Shown here: in pieces, positions 42,171 to 51,893 of the stretch | Numbering within the stretch: the first letter of the stretch is position 1 | How the letters are laid out: each line of letters opens with the position of its first letter | NCBI RefSeq assembly: GCF_021533215.1 | Contig: NZ_JAJNKA010000017.1 | Span: forward strand, 1-64,000 | Direction of reading: 5' to 3' | From: Portibacter lacus | GTDB taxonomy: Bacteria; Bacteroidota; Bacteroidia; Chitinophagales; Saprospiraceae | DNA length: 64,000 bases | Made by a program: the position numbers and the translations under genes | Notes under the pieces: model-generated | Databases searched by the model: none | Told to the model about the DNA's origin: nothing | The model's input: only the letters and a program-made list of their open reading frames with translations

Positions 42171-42935
42171 TTAATTTAACCAATCCTTGAATCCTGAGAT
42201 TTTTTCAGCTGGTACGAAAACTTGGAAGCCTGGATCTGTCTTTAGAATCACCTTAAGCTTACTCCTTGAATAGGCTAGAACTTCTACGAGACTATTGATT
42301 CTAATAATCACTTTTCGATTCACCCTGAAAAAATGCTGTGGATCAAGAAGGCTCTCTAATTCTGCCAGCGTATGATTCACATAGTAGCGCTTCCCATTTT
42401 CTGTGATCAAGTAAGTGGTTTTGTTTTCAGCATAGAAGTAATGAATTTCAGACGCATCTACCGTCCTGATCTTATCTGCAATCTGAACCATAAACCTTTG
42501 TTTAAAAGGAGACTTTGCGTGGTTTATCGCATTGGCTAATGCTTGATAGTCTGGGAGTTGTTGACTTTTATTGGTGAAATGCGTTTGGTATTTGCTTAAG
42601 CTCTGGACAAGGTCATCTTTCTGAATAGGTTTTAAAAGATAATCCACGCTATTTTGCTTGAATGCCTCGATGGCATATTGATCATAGGCAGTGGTAAAGA
42701 TGATAGGAATATCGGTTTCAACTTGTTCGAAAATCTTAAAACTTAGTCCATCCGTTAGGTGCACGTCCAGAAATATCAAGTCAAATTCCTCCTCTTTAAG
42801 TATTTTAACGGATTCCGAAATAGACTGGCAGCGATGGCTGATTAGGTATTCGCCATTGCGATCACTTTCCTTAATCAGTCTTTCCAGCCTTCGTGCTGCA
42901 AGATCTTCATCTTCTATAATAAGGCATTTTATCAT
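42171..42935 (-). CDS. LytTR-family response regulator
   Basis: A 254-residue regulator. The receiver domain at 1-120 has the acidic pocket (IIEDED), phosphoacceptor Asp in LIFLDVHL near residue 56, Thr in FTTAYD and the Lys of YLLKPIQK. A LytTR DNA-binding domain occupies about 150-254 (FMVQIADKIRTVDASEIHYF, YYVNHTLAELESLLD, FFRVNRKVIIRI). It overlaps the start of the histidine kinase gene by four bases. The pair is divergent from the TonB receptor gene at 44161, which may be a target (inference). Confidence 0.93.
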   Translation of the reverse strand: MIKCLIIEDEDLAARRLERLIKESDRNGEYLISHRCQSISESVKILKEEEFDLIFLDVHLTDGLSFKIFEQVETDIPIIFTTAYDQYAIEAFKQNSVDYLLKPIQKDDLVQSLSKYQTHFTNKSQQLPDYQALANAINHAKSPFKQRFMVQIADKIRTVDASEIHYFYAENKTTYLITENGKRYYVNHTLAELESLLDPQHFFRVNRKVIIRINSLVEVLAYSRSKLKVILKTDPGFQVFVPAEKISGFKDWLN

Positions 42936-43978
42936 GGTAACTTTTCTAAGATTGGAAGCATAGCAATATATTCATTTTCACTCTGGATAAATTGGGGTTG
43001 AAGACCAGAGAAGAAAGAGTAGGTCGACTTTAGGTTGCTGTGTCCTACGCCCGTAGAATTGTTTACGTCGTCTCTGAGTTGAATGTTATTTTTAACAATT
43101 AAATATTTTTCGTCATTCGTAATATTGACCACCAGTGGGCTTTTCTTGGTTGCTTGGTTATGTTTGATTGCATTTTCGAGTAAAAGTTGAAAAGCAAGTG
43201 GTGGTGCATATGTATTAAGGACTTTTGGGCTTAGGTCAATGTTTACTATTAATTTATCACCGAATCTTATTTTTTGCAAGAATAAGTAAGACTCCAAGAA
43301 TTCAACTTCTTTTTTAAGACTAACAAAGGACTGATCATTAATGTCTAAAACGTAGCGGTAGACCTTTGAAAATTGATTGATGAACTCGTTCGCTTTTTCC
43401 GTGTCCTCATACATCAGTTCTGACAGAACATTTAAGCTGTTGAATAGGAAGTGAGGGTTAAGTTTCTGTTGTAAAGAACTAAGTTGTAAGGCTAATTTAT
43501 CTTTTTCAGAAGAAGCCAAAGATATGGTTAGCTTTTGGTTGTCTTCAAGAACAGTCCATATTTCATAAACCATGAAAATTAGAACACCCATCGAAATATT
43601 GAACATCGCAAAAGCGGTGATGGTGTTATTGGTGTCAAAAATCGAGTTCACATGATGATCAGGCTGAAATTTAGATTTTAAAACACTGATCACTGTTACC
43701 GTGAAAATTAAAACCAAAAGCTCAATAGCCCATCTTTTCCAAGAGTCTCTCTCGAAGGAATACTTATTTAATAAGGATATCGTATAAGAAGCTATTGCTG
43801 AGAAAATGGTAATGCCAGCAAATAGTTTAAAAAAGATAATGTGAATCTTCGGCTGCACAACTTCCAAGAATTCCTTAGAGCCAACTAAGAAAATAGCTAT
43901 AAACATCATAAGCACCATACCTATGGTGATGGCTAAGGCAATCTTAATTTTCGACCCTAATTTTGTGGAATCTAGCAC
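42932..43978 (-). CDS. LytS/YehU-type sensor histidine kinase
   Basis: A 348-residue membrane kinase that starts at GTG. Four hydrophobic segments lie in the first 150 residues (IKIALAITIGMVLMMFIAIF; IIFFKLFAGITIFSAIASYT; LLVLIFTVTVISVL; NISMGVLIFMVYEIW), followed by the His_kinase domain with the phosphoacceptor in LQQKLNPHFLFNSLNVLSE, the ATP-site Asn in LLLENAIKHN, and a final GVGHSNLKSTY G-box. No extracytoplasmic sensor domain is present, so the membrane part may be the sensor. It precedes its response regulator by a four-base overlap. Confidence 0.92.
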   Translation of the reverse strand: MLDSTKLGSKIKIALAITIGMVLMMFIAIFLVGSKEFLEVVQPKIHIIFFKLFAGITIFSAIASYTISLLNKYSFERDSWKRWAIELLVLIFTVTVISVLKSKFQPDHHVNSIFDTNNTITAFAMFNISMGVLIFMVYEIWTVLEDNQKLTISLASSEKDKLALQLSSLQQKLNPHFLFNSLNVLSELMYEDTEKANEFINQFSKVYRYVLDINDQSFVSLKKEVEFLESYLFLQKIRFGDKLIVNIDLSPKVLNTYAPPLAFQLLLENAIKHNQATKKSPLVVNITNDEKYLIVKNNIQLRDDVNNSTGVGHSNLKSTYSFFSGLQPQFIQSENEYIAMLPILEKLP

Positions 43979-44160: not shown

Positions 44161-46446
44161 ATGAAAAAAATATTATTGCTAGCCCTTTTCTTTTCATCGG
44201 TAATTGCAGTGAGCGCTCAGAGTTTCACTTTAAGCGGTTATATGAAAGACCAAGATACTGGAGAGGACCTGATGTATGCAACTGTTAGTGTCGATGGCTC
44301 TGGCGAGGGAGTTACAACCAATCTTTATGGTTTTTATTCACTTACGTTACCTGAAGGGGATTATGTAATTGCTTATTCCTATGTGGGTTTTGAGACGCAA
44401 AGAATTGAAATCAAACTAGATAAGGATCAAGAATTGACCATAGAACTAGGAAGTGGAGCCAATGAATTAGATGAAGTGACCATTACGGCTGAAAGGGCTG
44501 ATGATAATGTGACGAGCACAGAAGTAGGTGTTGTTACACTTGATGTAAAGGAGACCATGAAAATTCCAGTCTTGATGGGCGAACAGAATATCATGAAAAC
44601 ATTCCAGTTAATGCCTGGAGTCGCGAGTAGTTCTGAAGGGGGAAGTGGATTCTTTGTAAGAGGAGGCGCTGCTGATCAAAATTTGATTCTTCTAGATGAA
44701 GCTCCAGTTTATAATGCAAGTCACCTGTTAGGGTTTTTCTCTGTTTTTAATTCGGATGCCTTGAAAGATGTGAAACTTTACAAAGGAGGTATTCCAGCGG
44801 AATATGGTGGTAGAGCTTCTTCTGTAATGGATGTAAGAATGAAAGAAGGAAACCTGAAGGAGTGGGGAGCTTCTGGCGGAATAGGCGTAATATCTTCTCG
44901 ATTAACGGTAGAAGGTCCTTTCGATAAAGATAAGGGTTCTATTATTGTGTCAGGGAGAAGAACTTATGCAGATGTGGTCGCAAGAACTTTTACAGATGAT
45001 TTCGATGGCGTTTCATTGTATTTTTATGATCTGAATGCTAAGGCAAACTACAAAATAGGTAGTAAGGATCGGATTTACCTTTCTGGTTATCTAGGGAGAG
45101 ATGCATTTGGTGTAGATGATCTTGGTTTTGACTGGGGGAATACCACTTTTACTGGGCGATGGAATCACACCTTTAACAACAAGTTGTTTTCGAATACTTC
45201 CCTCGTTTATTCAGATTATAATTATGGATTTGGACTGAACGTAGGTGATATCGATGTGGATCTTTCTTCAGGGATTTATGACTATTTGCTGAAACAAGAT
45301 TATAATTACTTCTTGAATCCTAATAATACCATGAAATTTGGCTGGCAATCTAATTTCCATGAATTCAGACCGAATGAATTCTCTTTTGACAATGAAGTTG
45401 AAACAGCACTTCCTAGTAGTAGACTGGCACTAGAAAATGCGCTCTATTGGTCAAATGAACAGAAGTTAAGCGATAGATTTACCGCTAATTATGGACTGAG
45501 ACTAAGCAGTTTTAGTAACATTGGAAATTTAAGTGAAAGCGAAATTGAAGAAGGTGGAAATGCGGAATATGAGAATGGAGAGTTTTATAATACTTTCTTG
45601 GGTGTCGAACCTCGAGTAAGTGCAACTTATTTATTAGATGCTAAGAGCTCAATTAAAGCTTCTTATAATAGAAATTATCAGTACTTGCATCTCTTATCAA
45701 ATTCAAATTCTGGAACGCCTACAGATATTTGGCTACCAAGTTCTCCAGTAGTTCTGCCAACGATCGCAGATCAGGTTGCGCTTGGATATTTTAGAAATTT
45801 CAAGTCTAATACTTATAAGTTTAGTACAGAAGTCTATTATAAATGGCTGCAAAATACCGTGGATTATAAAGATGGAGCGGAAACTTTCGGGAATAATGAT
45901 GTGGAATCTCAGTTGGTGTTCGGAGAAGGTAGAACTTATGGGGCAGAATTCTTGCTTGAAAAAACCAAAGGTAGATTAACGGGTTGGCTAGGGTATACCT
46001 TGAGTTCTTCGGAACTTCGAAGTGATGACATTAACCAAGGGAATTGGTATTCAGCAAGACAGGACAGAACACATGATCTATCGTTGGTGGCAATATATGA
46101 ACTTACGAAAAAACTAAGTTTGTCTGCTACTTGGGTCTATTATACAGGCGATGCGGTCACCTTTCCAGCAGGGAAATACTACATAGATGGCTCATTAATC
46201 AATCTCTATTCTGCTAGAAATGCGGATAGAATGCCTACCTATCATCGCTTAGATGCAGGACTTACTTGGACGATAAAGGATACGGACAAGTTTTCTAACA
46301 GTCTGAACTTTTCAGCTTACAATGTTTACAATAGGAAAAATGCATATTCGATTACTTTTCAAGAAGGGGAGAGTGGAAATACAGAAGCTTCTCGACTTGC
46401 CTTATTCGGAATCATCCCTTCTGTGACATGGAATTTTAGTTTTTAA
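44161..46446 (+). CDS. TonB-dependent receptor with carboxypeptidase-like domain
   Basis: A 761-residue outer-membrane receptor. After the signal (LLALFFSSVIAVSAQ), a CarboxypepD_reg-like domain occupies about 20-110 (FTLSGYMKDQDTGEDLMYAT). The plug follows (MKIPVLMGEQNIMKTFQLMP; GSGFFVRGGAADQNLILLDE), and the barrel ends with the aromatic residue of VTWNFSF. It imports an unknown substrate using TonB energy. The next gene encodes DUF4249, a common partner of this receptor subfamily. A LytTR two-component pair lies in the opposite direction. Confidence 0.93.
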   Translation: MKKILLLALFFSSVIAVSAQSFTLSGYMKDQDTGEDLMYATVSVDGSGEGVTTNLYGFYSLTLPEGDYVIAYSYVGFETQRIEIKLDKDQELTIELGSGANELDEVTITAERADDNVTSTEVGVVTLDVKETMKIPVLMGEQNIMKTFQLMPGVASSSEGGSGFFVRGGAADQNLILLDEAPVYNASHLLGFFSVFNSDALKDVKLYKGGIPAEYGGRASSVMDVRMKEGNLKEWGASGGIGVISSRLTVEGPFDKDKGSIIVSGRRTYADVVARTFTDDFDGVSLYFYDLNAKANYKIGSKDRIYLSGYLGRDAFGVDDLGFDWGNTTFTGRWNHTFNNKLFSNTSLVYSDYNYGFGLNVGDIDVDLSSGIYDYLLKQDYNYFLNPNNTMKFGWQSNFHEFRPNEFSFDNEVETALPSSRLALENALYWSNEQKLSDRFTANYGLRLSSFSNIGNLSESEIEEGGNAEYENGEFYNTFLGVEPRVSATYLLDAKSSIKASYNRNYQYLHLLSNSNSGTPTDIWLPSSPVVLPTIADQVALGYFRNFKSNTYKFSTEVYYKWLQNTVDYKDGAETFGNNDVESQLVFGEGRTYGAEFLLEKTKGRLTGWLGYTLSSSELRSDDINQGNWYSARQDRTHDLSLVAIYELTKKLSLSATWVYYTGDAVTFPAGKYYIDGSLINLYSARNADRMPTYHRLDAGLTWTIKDTDKFSNSLNFSAYNVYNRKNAYSITFQEGESGNTEASRLALFGIIPSVTWNFSF

Positions 46447-46461
46447 ATTTTTAATTTATAT

Positions 46462-47259
46462 ATGATGAAAATATTTAATATAATAATAGCTAGTTTAAGC
46501 ATCTTTCTTGTTACAGGATGCGAAGATATTATAGATCTTGAGCTAGACAATACAACACCAAGGATTGTGATCGAAGCCAACTTAGATGCTACCCATCAGC
46601 AAATTGCTGTAATAGTATCAAAGTCGAACGACTTCTACGAGGCTGCAGAACAGGTGAAGGTTATGAATGCGGTGGTGGAATTGAAAGGTGAGAACGGAGA
46701 AACAATTAGTCTTAACAGAAACGATTCAGGAATTTATGAAGGAATGGATCTTAGTGTTCAGCAAGGAGAGGAGGTAACCTTAAGTGTTGATGTAGATGGC
46801 GTTAATTATACCGCCATTGCAAAAATGCCTTCGGAAATAAACTTAATGACCGTGGATACTATGAAATTCAATCTGCCTTTCGGGCCTGCAGCGAGTGAAG
46901 AATCATTTCAGATGACTACTTCTTGGGATGATGTTCTAGGAGAAAAGAATTACTACCGCTTGAAGTCTTACAGAGACGATGTCTACGATAGTGGAAACTT
47001 TTCTGTGATCAATGATGAAGGATTAGATGGGAATAAAATAACCCAACCGATTCGATCTAGGTTTGAAAAAGGGAGTAAGGTAACCATTGAATTACTAAGT
47101 ACTGATCAAGCATATTATGATTACTTCTTAGACTTAGATGGTTCTCAGAGTGAAGGATTGAGTAGTTCTATTCCCTATAATGCGAAAGGTAATTTTAGTA
47201 ATAACGCGCTTGGATATTTTGGAGCTTATTACACTTCAGCTATAACAATTCAGTTATAA
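46462..47259 (+). CDS. DUF4249 lipoprotein, TonB receptor partner
   Basis: A 265-residue lipoprotein (signal IFLVTGC24, then EDIIDLELDN) with the DUF4249 pattern: TPRIVIEANLD near residue 33, KVMNAVVELKGENGETISL, and a later GEKNYYRLKSYRDD. DUF4249 genes occur in Bacteroidota directly after a TonB receptor of the same type, and are thought to act at the cell surface in substrate capture. It begins 16 bases after the receptor stop and is closed by a strong terminator. Confidence 0.88.
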   Translation: MMKIFNIIIASLSIFLVTGCEDIIDLELDNTTPRIVIEANLDATHQQIAVIVSKSNDFYEAAEQVKVMNAVVELKGENGETISLNRNDSGIYEGMDLSVQQGEEVTLSVDVDGVNYTAIAKMPSEINLMTVDTMKFNLPFGPAASEESFQMTTSWDDVLGEKNYYRLKSYRDDVYDSGNFSVINDEGLDGNKITQPIRSRFEKGSKVTIELLSTDQAYYDYFLDLDGSQSEGLSSSIPYNAKGNFSNNALGYFGAYYTSAITIQL

Positions 47260-47407: not shown

Positions 47408-48586
47408 TTACAATCGTTCTACAATAATGGCACTGGCGCCTCCACCTCCATTACAAAGCGTTGCACATCCATATTTTCCTTTCTGTTCTCCTAAAGAATG
47501 AATTAATGTTGTTGTAATTCTTGATCCAGATGAACCTAGTGGATGTCCAAGTGCAACTGCACCACCATTAATATTTACTTTTGTTGGGTCAATTTCTAAT
47601 TCTTTATTGAATGCCATCGTTACTACCGCGAAAGCTTCATTAACTTCGTAAAGATCCATGTCGTTTTTGGTCAAGCCAGCTCTTTTTAAAGCTTTTGGCG
47701 CTGCCAATGTAGGAGCGGTTGTAAACCAAGTTGGTTCATGAGAAGCATCTGCATAAGAAACAATTCTTGCAATTGGTTTCAGACCAAATTTCTTAACTGC
47801 TTCTTCGCTAGCCAGTATTAGTGCTGATGCTCCATCATTAATTGTACTTGAGTTCGCAGCGGTCACGGTACCATCTTTACTGAAAGCTGGTCTCAAAGAT
47901 GGGATTTTTTCAAAACGCACATTTTTATATTCTTCGTCTTCTGTCATGATTACAGGATCACCTTTTCTCTGCGGAATACTAACCGGCGCTATTTCTTCAG
48001 CAAACTTTCCAGCTTCTGTACTTGCTGCAGCTTTTTTATAAGAGTTTATTGCAAATTCATCTTGCTCTTCTCTTGTAAAGCTGTATTTTTTGGCGGTGTT
48101 ATCTGCGCTAATTCCCATGGCTTGGTGATCATAAGCGTCAGATAAGCCGTCTTTCTGTAATCCGTCTACCATTTCTGCAGAGCCGAACTTAAGCCCCCAT
48201 CTAACTTTAGGCAAGTAGTAAGGAATATTACTCATGCTTTCCATTCCGCCTGCAACTACAATTTCAGCTTGTCCTAACTGGATAGACTGCGCAGCGAACA
48301 TAATCGACTTCATTCCTGATGAGCATACCTTATTTACAGAGGTGGCAGGCACTGTATTTGGTATTCCAGCTCCTAGACTAGCTTGTTTTGCTGGAGCTTG
48401 TCCCAAATTAGCAGAACATACATTGCCCATAAATACTTCATCTACATAATTAGCGTCAACATTGGCTTTCTTTAATGCTGCTTTTATTGCTGTAGCTCCT
48501 AAACTCGGTGCACTAAGGCTTGATAACATTCCGCCGAAACTTCCCATTGGGGTTCTTTGGGCGGAAACAATATATACTTCTTTCAT
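47408..48586 (-). CDS. Acetyl-CoA C-acyltransferase (thiolase)
   Basis: A 392-residue thiolase. The nucleophile is Cys88 in NKVCSSGMKS, the second site contains GGAVALGHPLGSSG with its His, and the third GCATLCNGGGGASA with the acid/base Cys near residue 378. It either condenses two acetyl-CoA or cleaves 3-ketoacyl-CoA; the sequence is closest in style to acetoacetyl-CoA thiolases (AtoB/PhaA type). It is monocistronic, and the long small-RNA array begins upstream of it on the other strand. Confidence 0.94.
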   Translation of the reverse strand: MKEVYIVSAQRTPMGSFGGMLSSLSAPSLGATAIKAALKKANVDANYVDEVFMGNVCSANLGQAPAKQASLGAGIPNTVPATSVNKVCSSGMKSIMFAAQSIQLGQAEIVVAGGMESMSNIPYYLPKVRWGLKFGSAEMVDGLQKDGLSDAYDHQAMGISADNTAKKYSFTREEQDEFAINSYKKAAASTEAGKFAEEIAPVSIPQRKGDPVIMTEDEEYKNVRFEKIPSLRPAFSKDGTVTAANSSTINDGASALILASEEAVKKFGLKPIARIVSYADASHEPTWFTTAPTLAAPKALKRAGLTKNDMDLYEVNEAFAVVTMAFNKELEIDPTKVNINGGAVALGHPLGSSGSRITTTLIHSLGEQKGKYGCATLCNGGGGASAIIVERL

Positions 48587-48845
48587 TGATTAATTTTGCG
48601 ATAAAGATAATCGAATCCTAGGTACATATGAAATTAAATCAAATTCGATTTTAGTGTAAATGAAATGATATGTTGTCTGATTTAGAAATTGAACTACATC
48701 TCCTACTAAGTTGTATTTTTATTTAGTTGACTTTTAGTCAATTTTTAAAAACAGATGAAAATGGAGTTGCGTTTAGATTATTAGTAATTTATATATGTGG
48801 TAAAAATAATATATAAATATATTTGTAATATTTATTTAAATCAGT

Positions 48846-48874
48846 GTAGGGGAGGGCTGTAAATCATGCGTCTA
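48846..48874 (+). promoter_or_regulatory. ECF-like promoter motif of sRNA copy 1
   Basis: GTAGGGG, then 16 bases, then CGTCTA, ending six bases before the conserved CAAAGGG start of the RNA. The same pair with the same spacing occurs before copies 4 and 7. Confidence 0.55.
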
Positions 48875-48879
48875 TTATT

Positions 48880-48951
48880 CAAAGGGTGTTTTATAAAAAT
48901 TAGTTTAGGGTAATAAGCGCGTCAAGGTGAGGATCTTGGGCGCTTTTTTTT
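48880..48951 (+). ncRNA. Small RNA candidate, copy 1 (long-promoter class)
   Basis: A 72-nt element with the consensus sequence. Terminator: AAGCGC / GCGCTT outer stem and TCAAGGT / ATCTTGG inner stem (with G-T pairs) around GAGG, followed by eight T. The likely 5' end lies at CAAAGGG. A weak hairpin with T-run at 48727-48746 may close any transcript arriving from upstream. Confidence 0.72.
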
Positions 48952-49161
48952 ACATGGATTTTTCCGATGCCTAAAATATCACAATTGAAATTCCTTCTTC
49001 TCATCACTTCATAATGCTCATATTCTCTTGCATTTTTCGATGTTAACAAATTTTTAACAAAAAGGTTCTAATTTTTTTTCATATTAAATTAAATACAATA
49101 TAAAGATTTTTAATATGTTACATATGATGAATAAATACATATTATATTTTGCAACTCAAGG

Positions 49162-49191
49162 CATGGGGGATGTTTAATTTTGAATCGTCTA
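49162..49191 (+). promoter_or_regulatory. ECF-like promoter motif of sRNA copy 2
   Basis: CATGGGG, 17 bases, then CGTCTA. A diverged version of the motif at copies 1, 4 and 7: one base more in the spacer and two changes in the -35 half, but the CGTCTA half is intact. Confidence 0.45.
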
Positions 49192-49197
49192 GGTATT

Positions 49198-49266
49198 CAA
49201 AGGGTGTTTTATAAAATTAGTTTAGGTTAAAAGCGCATCAAGGTGAGGATCTTGGGCGCTTTTTTT
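49198..49266 (+). ncRNA. Small RNA candidate, copy 2 (long-promoter class)
   Basis: A 69-nt copy, somewhat diverged in its middle (TTTAGGTTAAAAGCGCATC). The hairpin AAGCGC / GCGCTT with inner TCAAGGT / ATCTTGG is kept and followed by seven T. Confidence 0.68.
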
Positions 49267-49298
49267 ATTATATGTGAAAAAAATATAATGTGTTTCTT

Positions 49299-49327
49299 TT
49301 GCATTTCCATCAATTGTGTTACATTTG
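49299..49327 (+). promoter_or_regulatory. Housekeeping promoter of sRNA copy 3
   Basis: TTG, 18 bases, TACATTTG: the Bacteroidota -33/-7 consensus TTG-N19-TAnnTTTG, ending three bases before AAAGGG. Confidence 0.65.
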
Positions 49328-49329
49328 TT

Positions 49330-49400
49330 GAAAGGGTGTTTTATTAAAATTAGTTTAGGGTAATAAGCGCGTCAAGATGGGGATCTTGGGCGCTTTTTTT
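49330..49400 (+). ncRNA. Small RNA candidate, copy 3 (housekeeping-promoter class)
   Basis: A 71-nt copy. Its inner stem is TCAAGAT / ATCTTGG, so the G-U pair of the consensus (TCAAGGT) has become A-U, a compensatory change that keeps the hairpin. Loop GGGG instead of GAGG. Seven T follow. Confidence 0.74.
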
Positions 49401-49616
49401 ATGCTCCATTATTCACTATGTATTAAGCTATATAAATACCTTTCTCTTGGACTGGGAGAATCAGGTTTTTCCTCCCCATCATCCATTTTTATTTTGATCT
49501 CTTCATCTTCCTATAAATTAAAATTTTTTCAAAGAATATAATATATAGCTATTGTGTTTTATACGAGAAATTTACATATGATGAAAAAATAAATGTAAAA
49601 ATTATATTATATATGA

Positions 49617-49645
49617 GTAGGGGAGGTGTATTTACAAAGCGTCTA
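49617..49645 (+). promoter_or_regulatory. ECF-like promoter motif of sRNA copy 4
   Basis: GTAGGGG, 16 bases, CGTCTA, ending six bases before CAAAGGG; the same as copies 1 and 7. Confidence 0.55.
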
Positions 49646-49650
49646 CTAGT

Positions 49651-49724
49651 CAAAGGGTGTTTTATAAAAATTAGTTTAGGGTAATAAGCGCGTCAAGGTG
49701 AGGATCTTGGGCGCTTTTTTTTTT
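49651..49724 (+). ncRNA. Small RNA candidate, copy 4 (long-promoter class)
   Basis: A 74-nt copy, nearly identical to copy 1 from CAAAGGG to the terminator, which is followed by ten T. Confidence 0.74.
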
Positions 49725-49890
49725 CTAGCATTTTTATGACCTATCTAAGCATCTGTTCTCAAGCCATTCCTTACTTTATTATATTAGTATTTTCACCGTG
49801 TATAGACCATGATTAAAAGGGTCCTGAAGATAATTTTCAATCATTACATTACTTTTTTAACATATATAAATAATATTTAAAGTGTTTTGC

Positions 49891-49920
49891 TTGTCTTTTC
49901 GTTTTGATTTATTACATTTG
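49891..49920 (+). promoter_or_regulatory. Housekeeping promoter of sRNA copy 5
   Basis: TTG, exactly 19 bases, TACATTTG: full agreement with the Bacteroidota promoter consensus. Confidence 0.68.
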
Positions 49921-49923
49921 GAT

Positions 49924-49990
49924 TAAGGGTTTTAAAACAATTAGTTTAGGTAATAAGCGCGTCAAGGTGAGGATCTTGTGCGCTTTCTTT
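49924..49990 (+). ncRNA. Small RNA candidate, copy 5 (housekeeping-promoter class)
   Basis: A shorter, 67-nt copy with a changed 5' part (AAGGGTTTTAAAACAATTAG). The hairpin is kept (AAGCGC, TCAAGGT, ATCTTGT, GCGC) with one T-T mismatch. The T-run is broken by a C, so termination may be weaker. Confidence 0.62.
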
Positions 49991-50172
49991 GTTTAGTAGA
50001 ATATTACTCTTATAGAATCTCCGGCTGCTGCTTCAGGGATGATGTCTCATTCTTCTTATTTTCTATGCATGTTTTATGTAGATATTGAATTCAATTCACA
50101 ACGAAATGTCAATCTGACATAGAGCTAAAACTACTTACTTTACAAAAATGGTTTTTTTATTCAAAGTACTTT

Positions 50173-50202
50173 TTGAAATTACCTTTCGAATTGTTACATT
50201 TG
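50173..50202 (+). promoter_or_regulatory. Housekeeping promoter of sRNA copy 6
   Basis: TTG, exactly 19 bases, TACATTTG, directly followed by AA and the conserved CAAAGGG. Confidence 0.7.
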
Positions 50203-50204
50203 AA

Positions 50205-50274
50205 CAAAGGGTGTTTTATAAGTACTACCTAGGGTACTAAGCGCGCCAAGGTGAGGACCTTGGGCGCTTTTTTT
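50205..50274 (+). ncRNA. Small RNA candidate, copy 6 (housekeeping-promoter class, most diverged)
   Basis: A 70-nt copy with many changes that hold or improve pairing. The inner stem is CCAAGGT / ACCTTGG, so two G-U pairs of the consensus became C-G and G-C. In the middle part TACC can pair with GGTA where the consensus has only G-U pairs. Outer stem GCGC / GCGC. Seven T follow. Confidence 0.72.
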
Positions 50275-50555
50275 GTTTTATATGGACCCATAACTTTTCA
50301 GAACTTATAATTTGTTTTCATGGATAGTATAGAACCATGTTTTAGTTTAGTTCATTTATTTTGTAAGCATATTTTTACTTCCCATGAATGATCGAAATGT
50401 AGATGGCATATTGATAATCAACTTTAAATGCATTGACATTAAAATTTATCTAAAAAAAAATAAAATTTTAATCAAAAAAATATTGCTCTTAGTATTAGAA
50501 TTTTAGCTTTTTATATATTATATAAATAGATATGTTTAAAAACTTATTAATTAAA

Positions 50556-50584
50556 GTAGGGGTACTTTGGTTTCTAAGCGTCTA
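50556..50584 (+). promoter_or_regulatory. ECF-like promoter motif of sRNA copy 7
   Basis: GTAGGGG, 16 bases, CGTCTA, six bases before CAAAGGG. Confidence 0.55.
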
Positions 50585-50589
50585 TTAGT

Positions 50590-50662
50590 CAAAGGGTGTT
50601 TTATAAAAATTAGTTTAGGGTAATAAGCGCGTCAAGGTGAGGATCTTGTGCGCTTTTTTTTT
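50590..50662 (+). ncRNA. Small RNA candidate, copy 7 (long-promoter class)
   Basis: A 73-nt copy, nearly identical to copies 1 and 4, with ATCTTGT in the hairpin as in copy 5 and nine T after it. It lies 116 bases upstream of the next protein gene on the same strand. Confidence 0.73.
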
Positions 50663-50777: not shown

Positions 50778-51893
50778 ATGAAAATCCTCACTTTAATAAT
50801 AACACTATTCACAATGCTAAGTATACCAGTTCTACTGGATGCGCAATCTGTGGAAGAAGAAACTGGATTCAAATACGTTAAAGGGAACTACTTGTTCGAT
50901 AGCGGAAGATATGATGAAGCCATTCAAGTTTACAACGATATCATCAAAGGAAATGCTTCCTATGAAGAGGCTCTTGTTTACAGAGCTCGAGCGAAATATG
51001 CATTAGGTGCATATAAAGGAGCAAAGAGGGATGGATTAGCCTATATCGAACTGAATGGATTAAGTGAAGGTGTGTGTCTAGTAATGGGAAGAGCTGAGTT
51101 AGGTCTTGGGAATCCATTGGTAGCTATTAGTTACTTAGATTATGCAGTTTTAAAAAATAGCACCAATACAGATGCTTTATTAGCAAGAGGAGATGCTTTT
51201 TTTGAAATAGACGATGATGTTTCCGCTTGTACAGATTGGCATAAAGCGAAAAGGTTAGGTTCGGATAAAGCAGCCCAGCAAGCTGATGCATATTGTAAAA
51301 GAGTTGCGATACCGATAGATGATGAACCTAGAAAGCAGCCTGAGGTGATAGCAGAAGATAATGGCGATGATATTCTAGATGATGATGAAGTGCTGTCTAC
51401 AGGTTCTCAGTCCACTGATGAAGATGAAGGAGATGAGGATGTGTTATCTGGTGACGAAGTATTGTCCACAGAAACAGCATCAAATGATGATGTCGTTAAT
51501 AGCTCTGAAGATGATTATATATTTGATTCAAGTGACGATGAGGATGAATTCCCAGAGGAAGACCCAGTATTTGATGATGAGCCTCTAGATATTGTTGTAG
51601 AATTAATAGAAATAGATGAAGATCTTGATATAAAAATATACGATGGAGTAGGGAGTAGACAAGTTCGTGAAGTTCCTGATATTATCATCTTATCTGATAA
51701 TGCAGGGCAAGTTGTCGTAGATGTTTGTATCGATCGAAGTGGCAATGTATCCAGTGCTACCTTGAATAGAAAAAAATCAACTATCGGATCAGCAGGTCTA
51801 GTCTCTTTAGCGTTGCGTAAGTCAAGAGAGTTTAAGTTTGAGAGAACGAAGCAGGATGAACAGTGCGGTAAGATTGCCTTTTTATTGAAATAG
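50778..51893 (+). CDS. TPR protein with acidic linker and TonB-C-like domain
   Basis: A 371-residue exported protein. I set the start at ATG 50778, where MKILTLIITLFTMLSIPVLL and DAQS form a proper signal peptide; the frame opens 54 bases earlier. Residues about 28-180 hold TPR-like repeats (NYLFDSGRYDEAIQVYNDII; EEALVYRARAKYALGAYKGA). A 110-residue Asp/Glu/Ser-rich linker follows (DDDEVLSTGSQS and similar repeats). The last 95 residues (GQVVVDVCIDRSGNVSSATL to the end) resemble the TonB C-terminal/energy-transducer fold. It probably works in the periplasm as a scaffold. No clear partner. Confidence 0.8.
   Translation: MKILTLIITLFTMLSIPVLLDAQSVEEETGFKYVKGNYLFDSGRYDEAIQVYNDIIKGNASYEEALVYRARAKYALGAYKGAKRDGLAYIELNGLSEGVCLVMGRAELGLGNPLVAISYLDYAVLKNSTNTDALLARGDAFFEIDDDVSACTDWHKAKRLGSDKAAQQADAYCKRVAIPIDDEPRKQPEVIAEDNGDDILDDDEVLSTGSQSTDEDEGDEDVLSGDEVLSTETASNDDVVNSSEDDYIFDSSDDEDEFPEEDPVFDDEPLDIVVELIEIDEDLDIKIYDGVGSRQVREVPDIIILSDNAGQVVVDVCIDRSGNVSSATLNRKKSTIGSAGLVSLALRKSREFKFERTKQDEQCGKIAFLLK

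Follow-up and report, generated by a model that had tools for sequence, protein, structure and literature searches.

The window analysed here, a stretch of 64,000 nucleotides (nt) from Portibacter lacus (contig NZ_JAJNKA010000017.1), contains a gap of 2,191 bases in which seven putative small RNA (sRNA) genes are arranged in tandem. The gap is flanked by a thiolase gene (positions 47408-48586, minus strand) on one side and by a gene for a TPR-like protein (ATG at 50778, plus strand) on the other. Because these two genes are divergent, the copies of the array are not the 3' ends of flanking genes. An earlier note, made from the sequence alone, had described seven related plus-strand elements of about 70 nt in a gap of about 2.1 kb that is free of protein genes, and both statements held. 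A 31-base terminator block, AGCGCGTCAAGGTGAGGATCTTGGGCGCTTT, was identified seven times in the window with up to three mismatches and in none of 100 shuffles, and the open reading frames (ORFs) inside the gap, the TPR-like frame excepted, are all of 54 amino acids or fewer.

The seven copies, with a length of 69-71 nt, show a mean column identity of 93%. The 5' block had been reported as the same in each copy; it is exact in five of them (copies 1, 2, 4, 6 and 7, CAAAGGGTGTTTTATAA), while copy 3 contains GAAAGGGTGTTTTATTAA and copy 5 ATTAAGGGTTTTAAAAC at this place. The spacers, described before as unalike, include two shared upstream blocks, one common to copies 1, 2, 4 and 7 and a different one common to copies 3, 5 and 6. 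The proposed terminator hairpin with a T-run was recovered in the predicted folds of all seven copies, with the T-run of copy 5 being broken by a C. The 5' half is predicted to be unpaired in copies 1, 2, 3, 4 and 7, whereas a weak 5' hairpin is predicted for copy 5 and a hairpin in the middle block for copy 6.

Two classes of promoter, which the earlier note had not mentioned, were identified in front of these elements. Copies 1, 2, 4 and 7, as well as an eighth copy found elsewhere in the genome (see below), are preceded by GGGG-N17-GTCTA, a promoter of the extracytoplasmic function (ECF) type which ends 6-8 nt upstream of AAGGG. In copies 3, 5 and 6 this element is absent, and a housekeeping -7 box, TACATTTG, takes its place, in each case with its end exactly 4 nt upstream of AAGGG; TTTG (copies 3 and 6) or TTG (copy 5) is located 18-19 nt upstream of the box. 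TACATTTG is present at that position in none of copies 1, 2, 4, 7 and 8. The box is a full match to TAnnTTTG, the consensus of the Bacteroidota housekeeping -7 box as given in an excerpt of PMC7366714. Since this box is placed at -12 to -5 in the excerpted text of PMC9723704, the distance of 4 nt would set position +1 at the first A of AAGGG. Under either promoter class, the conserved RNA would thus begin at the same place, and AAGGG is likely to be its 5' end. Judged by its letters, each element has the features of an sRNA gene, namely a promoter of its own, an intrinsic terminator and no long ORF. The separate transcription units proposed in the earlier note are supported at the in silico level, by one promoter and one terminator per copy, and the two promoter classes are what would be expected of the condition-specific paralogues that it also envisaged. 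The two RNAs with the lowest scores, those of copies 5 and 6, both belong to the housekeeping class of three copies.

Table 1. Coordinates of the array, of its promoters and of the sigma/FecR cluster. Positions without prefix refer to the window; G000:C7 is contig C7 of the own genome (locus L152).
Feature	Position	Strand	Remark
sRNA copy 1, 5' block to end of terminator T-run	48880..48951	+	covariance model 103.9 bits
sRNA copy 2	49198..49266	+	covariance model 90.6 bits
sRNA copy 3	49330..49400	+	covariance model 98.2 bits
sRNA copy 4	49651..49724	+	covariance model 103.9 bits
sRNA copy 5, altered 5' block	49922..49990	+	covariance model 85.5 bits, lowest score
sRNA copy 6, 5' block intact, middle block to hairpin	50205..50274	+	covariance model 88.8 bits
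sRNA copy 7	50590..50662	+	covariance model 102.8 bits
Putative ECF-type promoter of copy 1, TAGGGG-N17-GTCTA	48847..48874	+	
Putative ECF-type promoter of copy 2, GGGG-N17-GTCTA	49166..49191	+	TG, not TA, in front
Putative housekeeping (sigma-ABfr-type) -7 box of copy 3	49320..49327	+	TACATTTG; TTTG 18 nt upstream
Putative ECF-type promoter of copy 4, TAGGGG-N17-GTCTA	49618..49645	+	
Putative housekeeping -7 box of copy 5	49913..49920	+	TACATTTG; TTG 19 nt upstream
Putative housekeeping -7 box of copy 6	50195..50202	+	TACATTTG; TTTG 19 nt upstream
Putative ECF-type promoter of copy 7, TAGGGG-N17-GTCTA	50557..50584	+	
ECF sigma gene	G000:C7 12415-12972	-	TIGR02985 156.9 bits, cut-off 126.4
Putative promoter between sigma and fecR, TAGGGG-N17-GTCTT	G000:C7 12374-12401	-	
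FecR	G000:C7 11326-12351	-	FecR and FecR_C domains
STN/Plug TonB-dependent receptor	G000:C7 8555-11200	-	STN and Plug domains
Two DUF4249 proteins, after the receptor	G000:C7	-	DUF4249 domain
Second putative promoter, overlapping upstream end of Crp-like frame	G000:C7 6278-6305	-	
Divergent lipoprotein-like gene	L152 13293-14001		also at L149, L150, L154, L159, L315, L316

Further copies were searched with a covariance model built from the seven window copies, which describes the RNA alone without its promoter. In the own genome (6.3 Mb), eight matches were obtained, seven of them being the array and the eighth lying at G000:C11:424286-424356 (54.8 bits). At the level of the order, with 149 genomes and an E-value of 0.01, matches were present in the own genome and, with three copies, in G031, and in none of the 147 others. 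At an E-value of 1 in 41 genomes of the family, two tandem copies were additionally identified in G176 (35.6 and 31.1 bits); G178 and G158 gave one weak match each, apparently to nothing more than a terminator hairpin. The genome-wide covariance search suggested by the earlier note has thus added an eighth copy and copies in two relatives. G031 belongs to the same genus (g1) as the window genome, and its array is located between the corresponding TPR-like and thiolase genes, with two copies before and one after a gene for a serine-hydrolase-like protein and with a gene of 572 amino acids further before the thiolase. All six extra copies found by this model of the RNA only (copy 8, three in G031 and two in G176) also match GGGGN{13,20}TCTWN{3,8}AAAGGGTGTT.

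When promoter and 5' block were searched as a joint pattern, 22 of 398 genomes of the family Saprospiraceae were found to contain it, with the reversed control giving 5 matches in 3 genomes. Eighteen of the 22 fall into three genera, namely g1 (2 of 3 genomes), g98 (6 of 6) and g110 (10 of 14). The single matches in G466, G450 and G093 are followed by unrelated sequence and were treated as chance, and the match in G346, at a contig end and identical in its letters to the unit in G435, may stem from a misbinned contig. A tighter form of the promoter with CAAAGGGTGTT identified 47 stretches among the genomes of 84,980 species, of which 45 are labelled Saprospiraceae or Portibacter marinus; the other two (Marinobacter, Pseudomonadales) have unrelated downstream sequence and were likewise regarded as chance. 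Arrays also occur in the relatives, with four copies at steps of 360-386 bp in G376 and five at steps of about 220 bp in G331, the genome with the highest copy number (14 pattern matches). With up to three mismatches, 28 places in 8 of 30 chosen genomes were obtained against 3 for the reversed control, and CAAAGGGTGTT is intact in 26 of the 28. An ECF-type promoter is present on 63 of 69 collected units, which is not an unbiased count, most loci of the relatives having been gathered by patterns that require this promoter type and the exact 5' block. The other six are copies 3 and 5, one N-masked unit, two units with one changed promoter base and one promoterless remnant; copy 6 was missed by the pattern used for this count. 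At G176:C3:13185-13228 (L157), a promoter is followed by GCGAACGGCGTTAATAACCGTTC, apparently a variant unit in which the 5' block is altered.

Downstream of the 5' block, the RNA varies very little among the units of one genus and differs from genus to genus, the block being followed by TTATAAAAATTAGTTTAGGGTAATAA in Portibacter, by GAAAATTATTCAAAAA in g98 and by ATTAAAGGTATT in most of g110. Two-sided changes in the terminator stem are absent among the seven window copies alone; across the relatives (26 distinct units of g98 and 19 of g110), compensatory changes were identified, with GC, CG and TA at one pair in g110 and GT, GC, AT, TG and TA at one pair in g98. These observations bear on the reading that the copies are functionless leftovers, such as duplicated terminators or a mobile-element repeat. 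The divergence of copies 5 and 6 and the lack of an identified target would fit such a reading. However, no 3' ends are expected between divergent flanking genes, each copy has its own promoter at nearly fixed spacing, the stem changes are compensatory and the 5' block is kept across genera. Moreover, the copies are not scattered over the genome, seven of the eight matches in 6.3 Mb lying in the array. Functionless leftovers are very improbable.

A candidate for the factor which recognizes the ECF-type promoter was obtained from a search of 12 chosen genomes for TAGGGG-N16-18-GTCTA alone, the 5' block not being required. In total, 58 sites were identified, compared to 31 for the reversed pattern. 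Of the 58, 21 head a 5' block, 7 immediately precede a FecR-type gene (in G259, G164, G331, G467, G176, G413 and G476) and 2 a Crp-like gene (in G000, the own genome, and in G304); the remaining 28 are at about the level of the reversed control. The gene upstream of fecR codes for an ECF sigma factor. In the own genome and in two genera, a TAGGGG-N17-GTCT element is located between the gene for the ECF sigma and that for the FecR-type anti-sigma, with a TonB-dependent receptor encoded next. In the own genome, the TIGR02985-type sigma stands beside FecR and a receptor with STN and Plug domains, and Pfam and NCBIfam models identified Sigma70 r2/r4, FecR, FecR_C, STN, Plug, DUF4249, cNMP-binding and Crp HTH domains in the cluster. 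The gene order is the same in g98 and g110. In the relatives, those of g1 included, FecR_C exceeded its cut-off in nine of nine proteins tested (PF04773 in the two from g1) and Plug in four of four receptors (STN in the one from g1), and the DUF4249 and Crp domains were identified in all proteins tested.

Of the parsed loci, 15 of 17 in the three genera and 2 of 5 in other genera have a promoter-like site between sigma and fecR; 7 of the 29 loci were not parsed, and one of these, from G304, has the site on full reading. As a sequence element, a putative autoregulatory promoter is common to the members of the regulon. A profile of eight sigma proteins, which come from 8 of the 39 genomes to which it was applied, gave 264.8-310.9 bits in 19 of the 23 genomes that belong to the three genera, and no more than 238.7 bits in the 16 others. 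The exceptions among the 23, namely G435, G454, G489 and G493, are genomes with a completeness of 67-89%.

Some observations were made around this cluster. In g1 and g110, the sigma gene has a divergent neighbour, a lipoprotein-like gene for about 260-270 amino acids that is similar by eye between loci and is a candidate part of the signalling system. In g110, more TAGGGG-N17-GTCTA sites were identified at L160 (3571-3598), L156 (1190-1217) and L155 (5093-5120), the first two upstream of very long ORFs, at distances of about 110 and 330 nt, and the third at a contig end; these are possible extra regulon members, with numbers within those of the control. In G105 and G017 (L278 and L281), a TAGGGG-type site follows the best-matching sigma gene, and since these represent genera without the sRNA pattern, the promoter may predate the RNAs.

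We conclude that the array probably represents a new multicopy sRNA family, three copies of which have moved to housekeeping promoters here, and that this family is the main recognizable regulon of a sigma factor of the FecI/FecR type (a probability of roughly 0.65). What speaks for this in the DNA is the set of copies, their terminators, the two promoter classes, the promoter shared with sigma/fecR and the conservation in three genera. Each copy would be transcribed on its own, from its promoter to an intrinsic terminator, the RNA starting at or near AAAGGGUGUU and being largely single-stranded in its 5' region. We infer that the TIGR02985-type ECF sigma encoded on G000:C7 recognizes the sites of copies 1, 2, 4, 7 and 8 and transcribes them; that the FecR-type anti-sigma holds the sigma; and that the STN-domain TonB-dependent receptor presumably frees it upon binding of a ligand. 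The same sigma would activate its own fecR-receptor-DUF4249 operon and the gene for the Crp-like regulator. From the housekeeping promoters of copies 3, 5 and 6, a base level independent of the signal would be produced. The RNAs would act in trans and most likely repress mRNAs by pairing with them through the invariant 5' end; by analogy, the targets could be mRNAs for outer-membrane proteins or receptors. Tandem copies would raise the dose, so that a signal at the receptor could be converted into a fast, dose-graded RNA output; dose control by copy number, which the earlier note had already raised, is a guess.

Several results weigh against this conclusion. The G031 copies have TCTT instead of GTCTA. 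In g98 and g110, PF04773 and STN remained below their cut-offs, both being exceeded in g1 only. For g98, a weak GU-rich hairpin over GGGUG is predicted, by which the 5' block would be paired; no hairpin over the block was predicted for g110. The sigma factor is retained in G304 and in four genomes of g110, along with the promoter site (a variant in G484), but no sRNA unit was found there by pattern, so that the sRNA is not essential to the system and is rather a variable part of the regulon. The searches for targets belong here as well. Two of them were made on 857 ORF starts from 1.3 Mb of sequence (roughly one fifth of the genome), each start being the first ATG of an ORF of at least 120 amino acids without curation, and dealt with ORF starts in general, without a separate set for the susC genes. 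Near these starts, complements to 8-mers of the 5' block, in three registers within AAAGGGTGTT, were found 0 times each compared to 0.9-1.4 expected, and complements to 7-mers 7, 0, 1 and 0 times compared to 5.1, 3.2, 2.1 and 2.2 expected. A duplex scan gave a mean of -12.50, a slight excess over shuffled RNAs (-11.98, standard deviation 0.32), with 102 starts at -16 or lower, where shuffles gave 77 on average and 103 at most. The outlier at -26.1 kcal/mol is a transporter-like ORF with a possibly misplaced start. Complements to the 10-mer, with the sRNA copies excluded, numbered 16 in G000, 17 in G031 and 9 in G304, compared to 19, 14 and 18 for the reversed control.

Other candidates for pairing were considered. 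The sequence ATTACCCT, which complements part of the middle block, occurs near starts seven times in sense orientation (1.3 expected) and three times in antisense; it was not counted as evidence because three of the seven fall in apparent signal-peptide codons for I-T-L. A complement in the leader of the sigma mRNA of one genome (L147) was not found in the others examined, and a first inspection of 24 stretches revealed only scattered complements of 7-8 bases. A further candidate was an action on ribosomes, in which the 5' block would pair with the 16S rRNA at its anti-Shine-Dalgarno tail, AAAGG and GUGUU being complementary to the two halves of the tail sequence AACACCUCCUUU. Among permuted and random 10-mers, 3.2% and 4.8%, respectively, reach the energy of this duplex, as do 7.6% of permuted tails, which is not striking for a match noticed post hoc; pairing with the tail was rejected on duplex energy, and such an action on ribosomes is scarcely credible. 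The G000 assembly gave no 16S rRNA match despite a completeness rating of 100%.

The main rival to base-pairing is a role in protein binding, in which many short RNAs with a fixed 5' sequence would act as a sponge and titrate a protein, for example an RNA-binding protein with an RRM domain. The own genome has a gene for such a protein at G000:C40, with an RRM_1 domain and a Gly-rich tail. Across genera, it is the 10-nt 5' block that is preserved, the remaining RNA being different; complements in mRNAs are not enriched; and RbpB, an RRM protein of B. thetaiotaomicron, is described in an excerpt of PMC11697453 as binding multicopy FopS sRNAs. However, RRM proteins are also found alongside base-pairing sRNAs, and each genus keeps most of the next 15-25 nt, which fits a pairing region no less well. 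Since the 5' block is predicted to be paired in g98, and STN and PF04773 are below cut-off outside Portibacter, the sponge was given slightly more weight and the sigma-driven family of base-pairing sRNAs slightly less; we nevertheless regard the sponge as unlikely. A more inclusive version, which we hold only tentatively and at somewhat under even odds, is that the main output of sigma/FecR in some Saprospiraceae consists of tandem sRNA genes, that Portibacter rewired some of them to have constant as well as induced copies, and that the 5' end may bind a protein.

The earlier note did not recognize the family, in agreement with an Rfam search of the whole window in which no match reached its gathering score. 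At a relaxed threshold, JA04 was obtained with 25.6 bits (gathering score 81) and FopS (RF04319) with at best 22.7 bits (gathering score 56). FopS comprises 14 paralogous sRNAs in Bacteroides thetaiotaomicron according to the excerpted PMC11697453, and the elements could be true homologues of this multicopy family, which represses SusC-type receptors through pairing at the start codons of susC-type mRNAs. The weak match to RF04319 is colinear over the whole model (GUGUUUU, AUUAG, UUUAGGUUAA and the terminator in this order), and multiple copies, terminators and three copies with housekeeping promoters resemble FopS. However, 22.7 bits is far below 56, and when RF04319 was run over the own genome, unrelated places reached up to 21.4 bits among the matches listed (150 of 1228 candidates scored), the array copies being absent from these. 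The alignment to the FopS consensus is not significant, since under two scoring schemes it was matched by 54-180 of 2000 shuffles for Portibacter, 295-364 for g110 and 1510-1965 for g98. The conserved FopS 5' sequence GUGUUUUUCAUGG has only GUGUU(UU) in common with the elements, and the invariant AAAGG before GTGTT is missing from the six FopS loci examined. Sigma-ABfr promoters, as in FopS, are present on three of the eight copies, and the other class on five. Homology to FopS is thus improbable, and by sequence comparison the array RNAs are FopS-like, not FopS.

The likeness to FopS, as far as excerpts of PMC11697453 describe it, consists in multicopy Bacteroidota sRNAs of about 70 nt with a single-stranded 5' part and a terminator, in a genome with an RRM protein. 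The same excerpts assign a non-housekeeping promoter to GibS and housekeeping promoters to FopS, similar to the two classes identified here. In contrast to FopS, most copies described here carry an ECF-type promoter tied to FecR and many stand in tandem arrays, and the Portibacter RNA has the 5' end AAAGGGUGUU without significant sequence similarity.

Among better known systems, the sigma-E-dependent RybB and MicA of enterobacteria are likewise small RNAs with a 5' seed driven by a sigma factor for envelope or surface signals. They are encoded by single genes rather than arrays, the anti-sigma is RseA and not FecR, and their targets are known. In FecI/FecR/FecA signalling, sigma, FecR and the STN-domain TonB-dependent receptor are also clustered and share a promoter element; the known outputs are transport operons, whereas most recognizable sites described here head small RNA genes. 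Sigma-driven sRNAs and multicopy sRNAs are already known as such, and to our knowledge, little is known of Bacteroidota sRNAs outside Bacteroides and Flavobacterium. SM6 of Flavobacterium psychrophilum is, by the excerpts of PMC9723704, an ECF-type promoter with a CGT -10 box, and its apparent gene list includes one RNA, Rfp11; Type IX secretion genes are prominent in that list, and no array is mentioned in the excerpted text. Sibling sRNAs from several genes, named in the excerpts of PMC11697453, are Qrr, OmrA/B, LhrC1-7 and the csRNAs. These belong to other organisms and regulators, and their sequences were compared through Rfam only. In titles and the beginnings of abstracts, with few subscription journals covered, no Saprospiraceae sRNAs and no FecR-type sigma with an sRNA array were found.

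If the proposed family is real, the sequence alone suggests a complete circuit of sensor, anti-sigma, sigma, promoter and RNA, by which ECF/FecR signalling would be tied to RNA control, and one RNA would be both a constant and a signal-induced regulator in Portibacter. The promoter swap inside one array would then be a natural experiment on the question why bacteria keep many sRNA copies.

Elsewhere in the window, at 44161-47259 and 1.6 kb from the array, a TonB-dependent receptor and a DUF4249 protein are encoded as a pair, of the kinds present in the sigma/FecR operon; this pair was not found in a 19-kb stretch around the G031 array. At 42171-43978, the translations look by eye like a pair formed by a response regulator of the LytTR type and a sensor histidine kinase.

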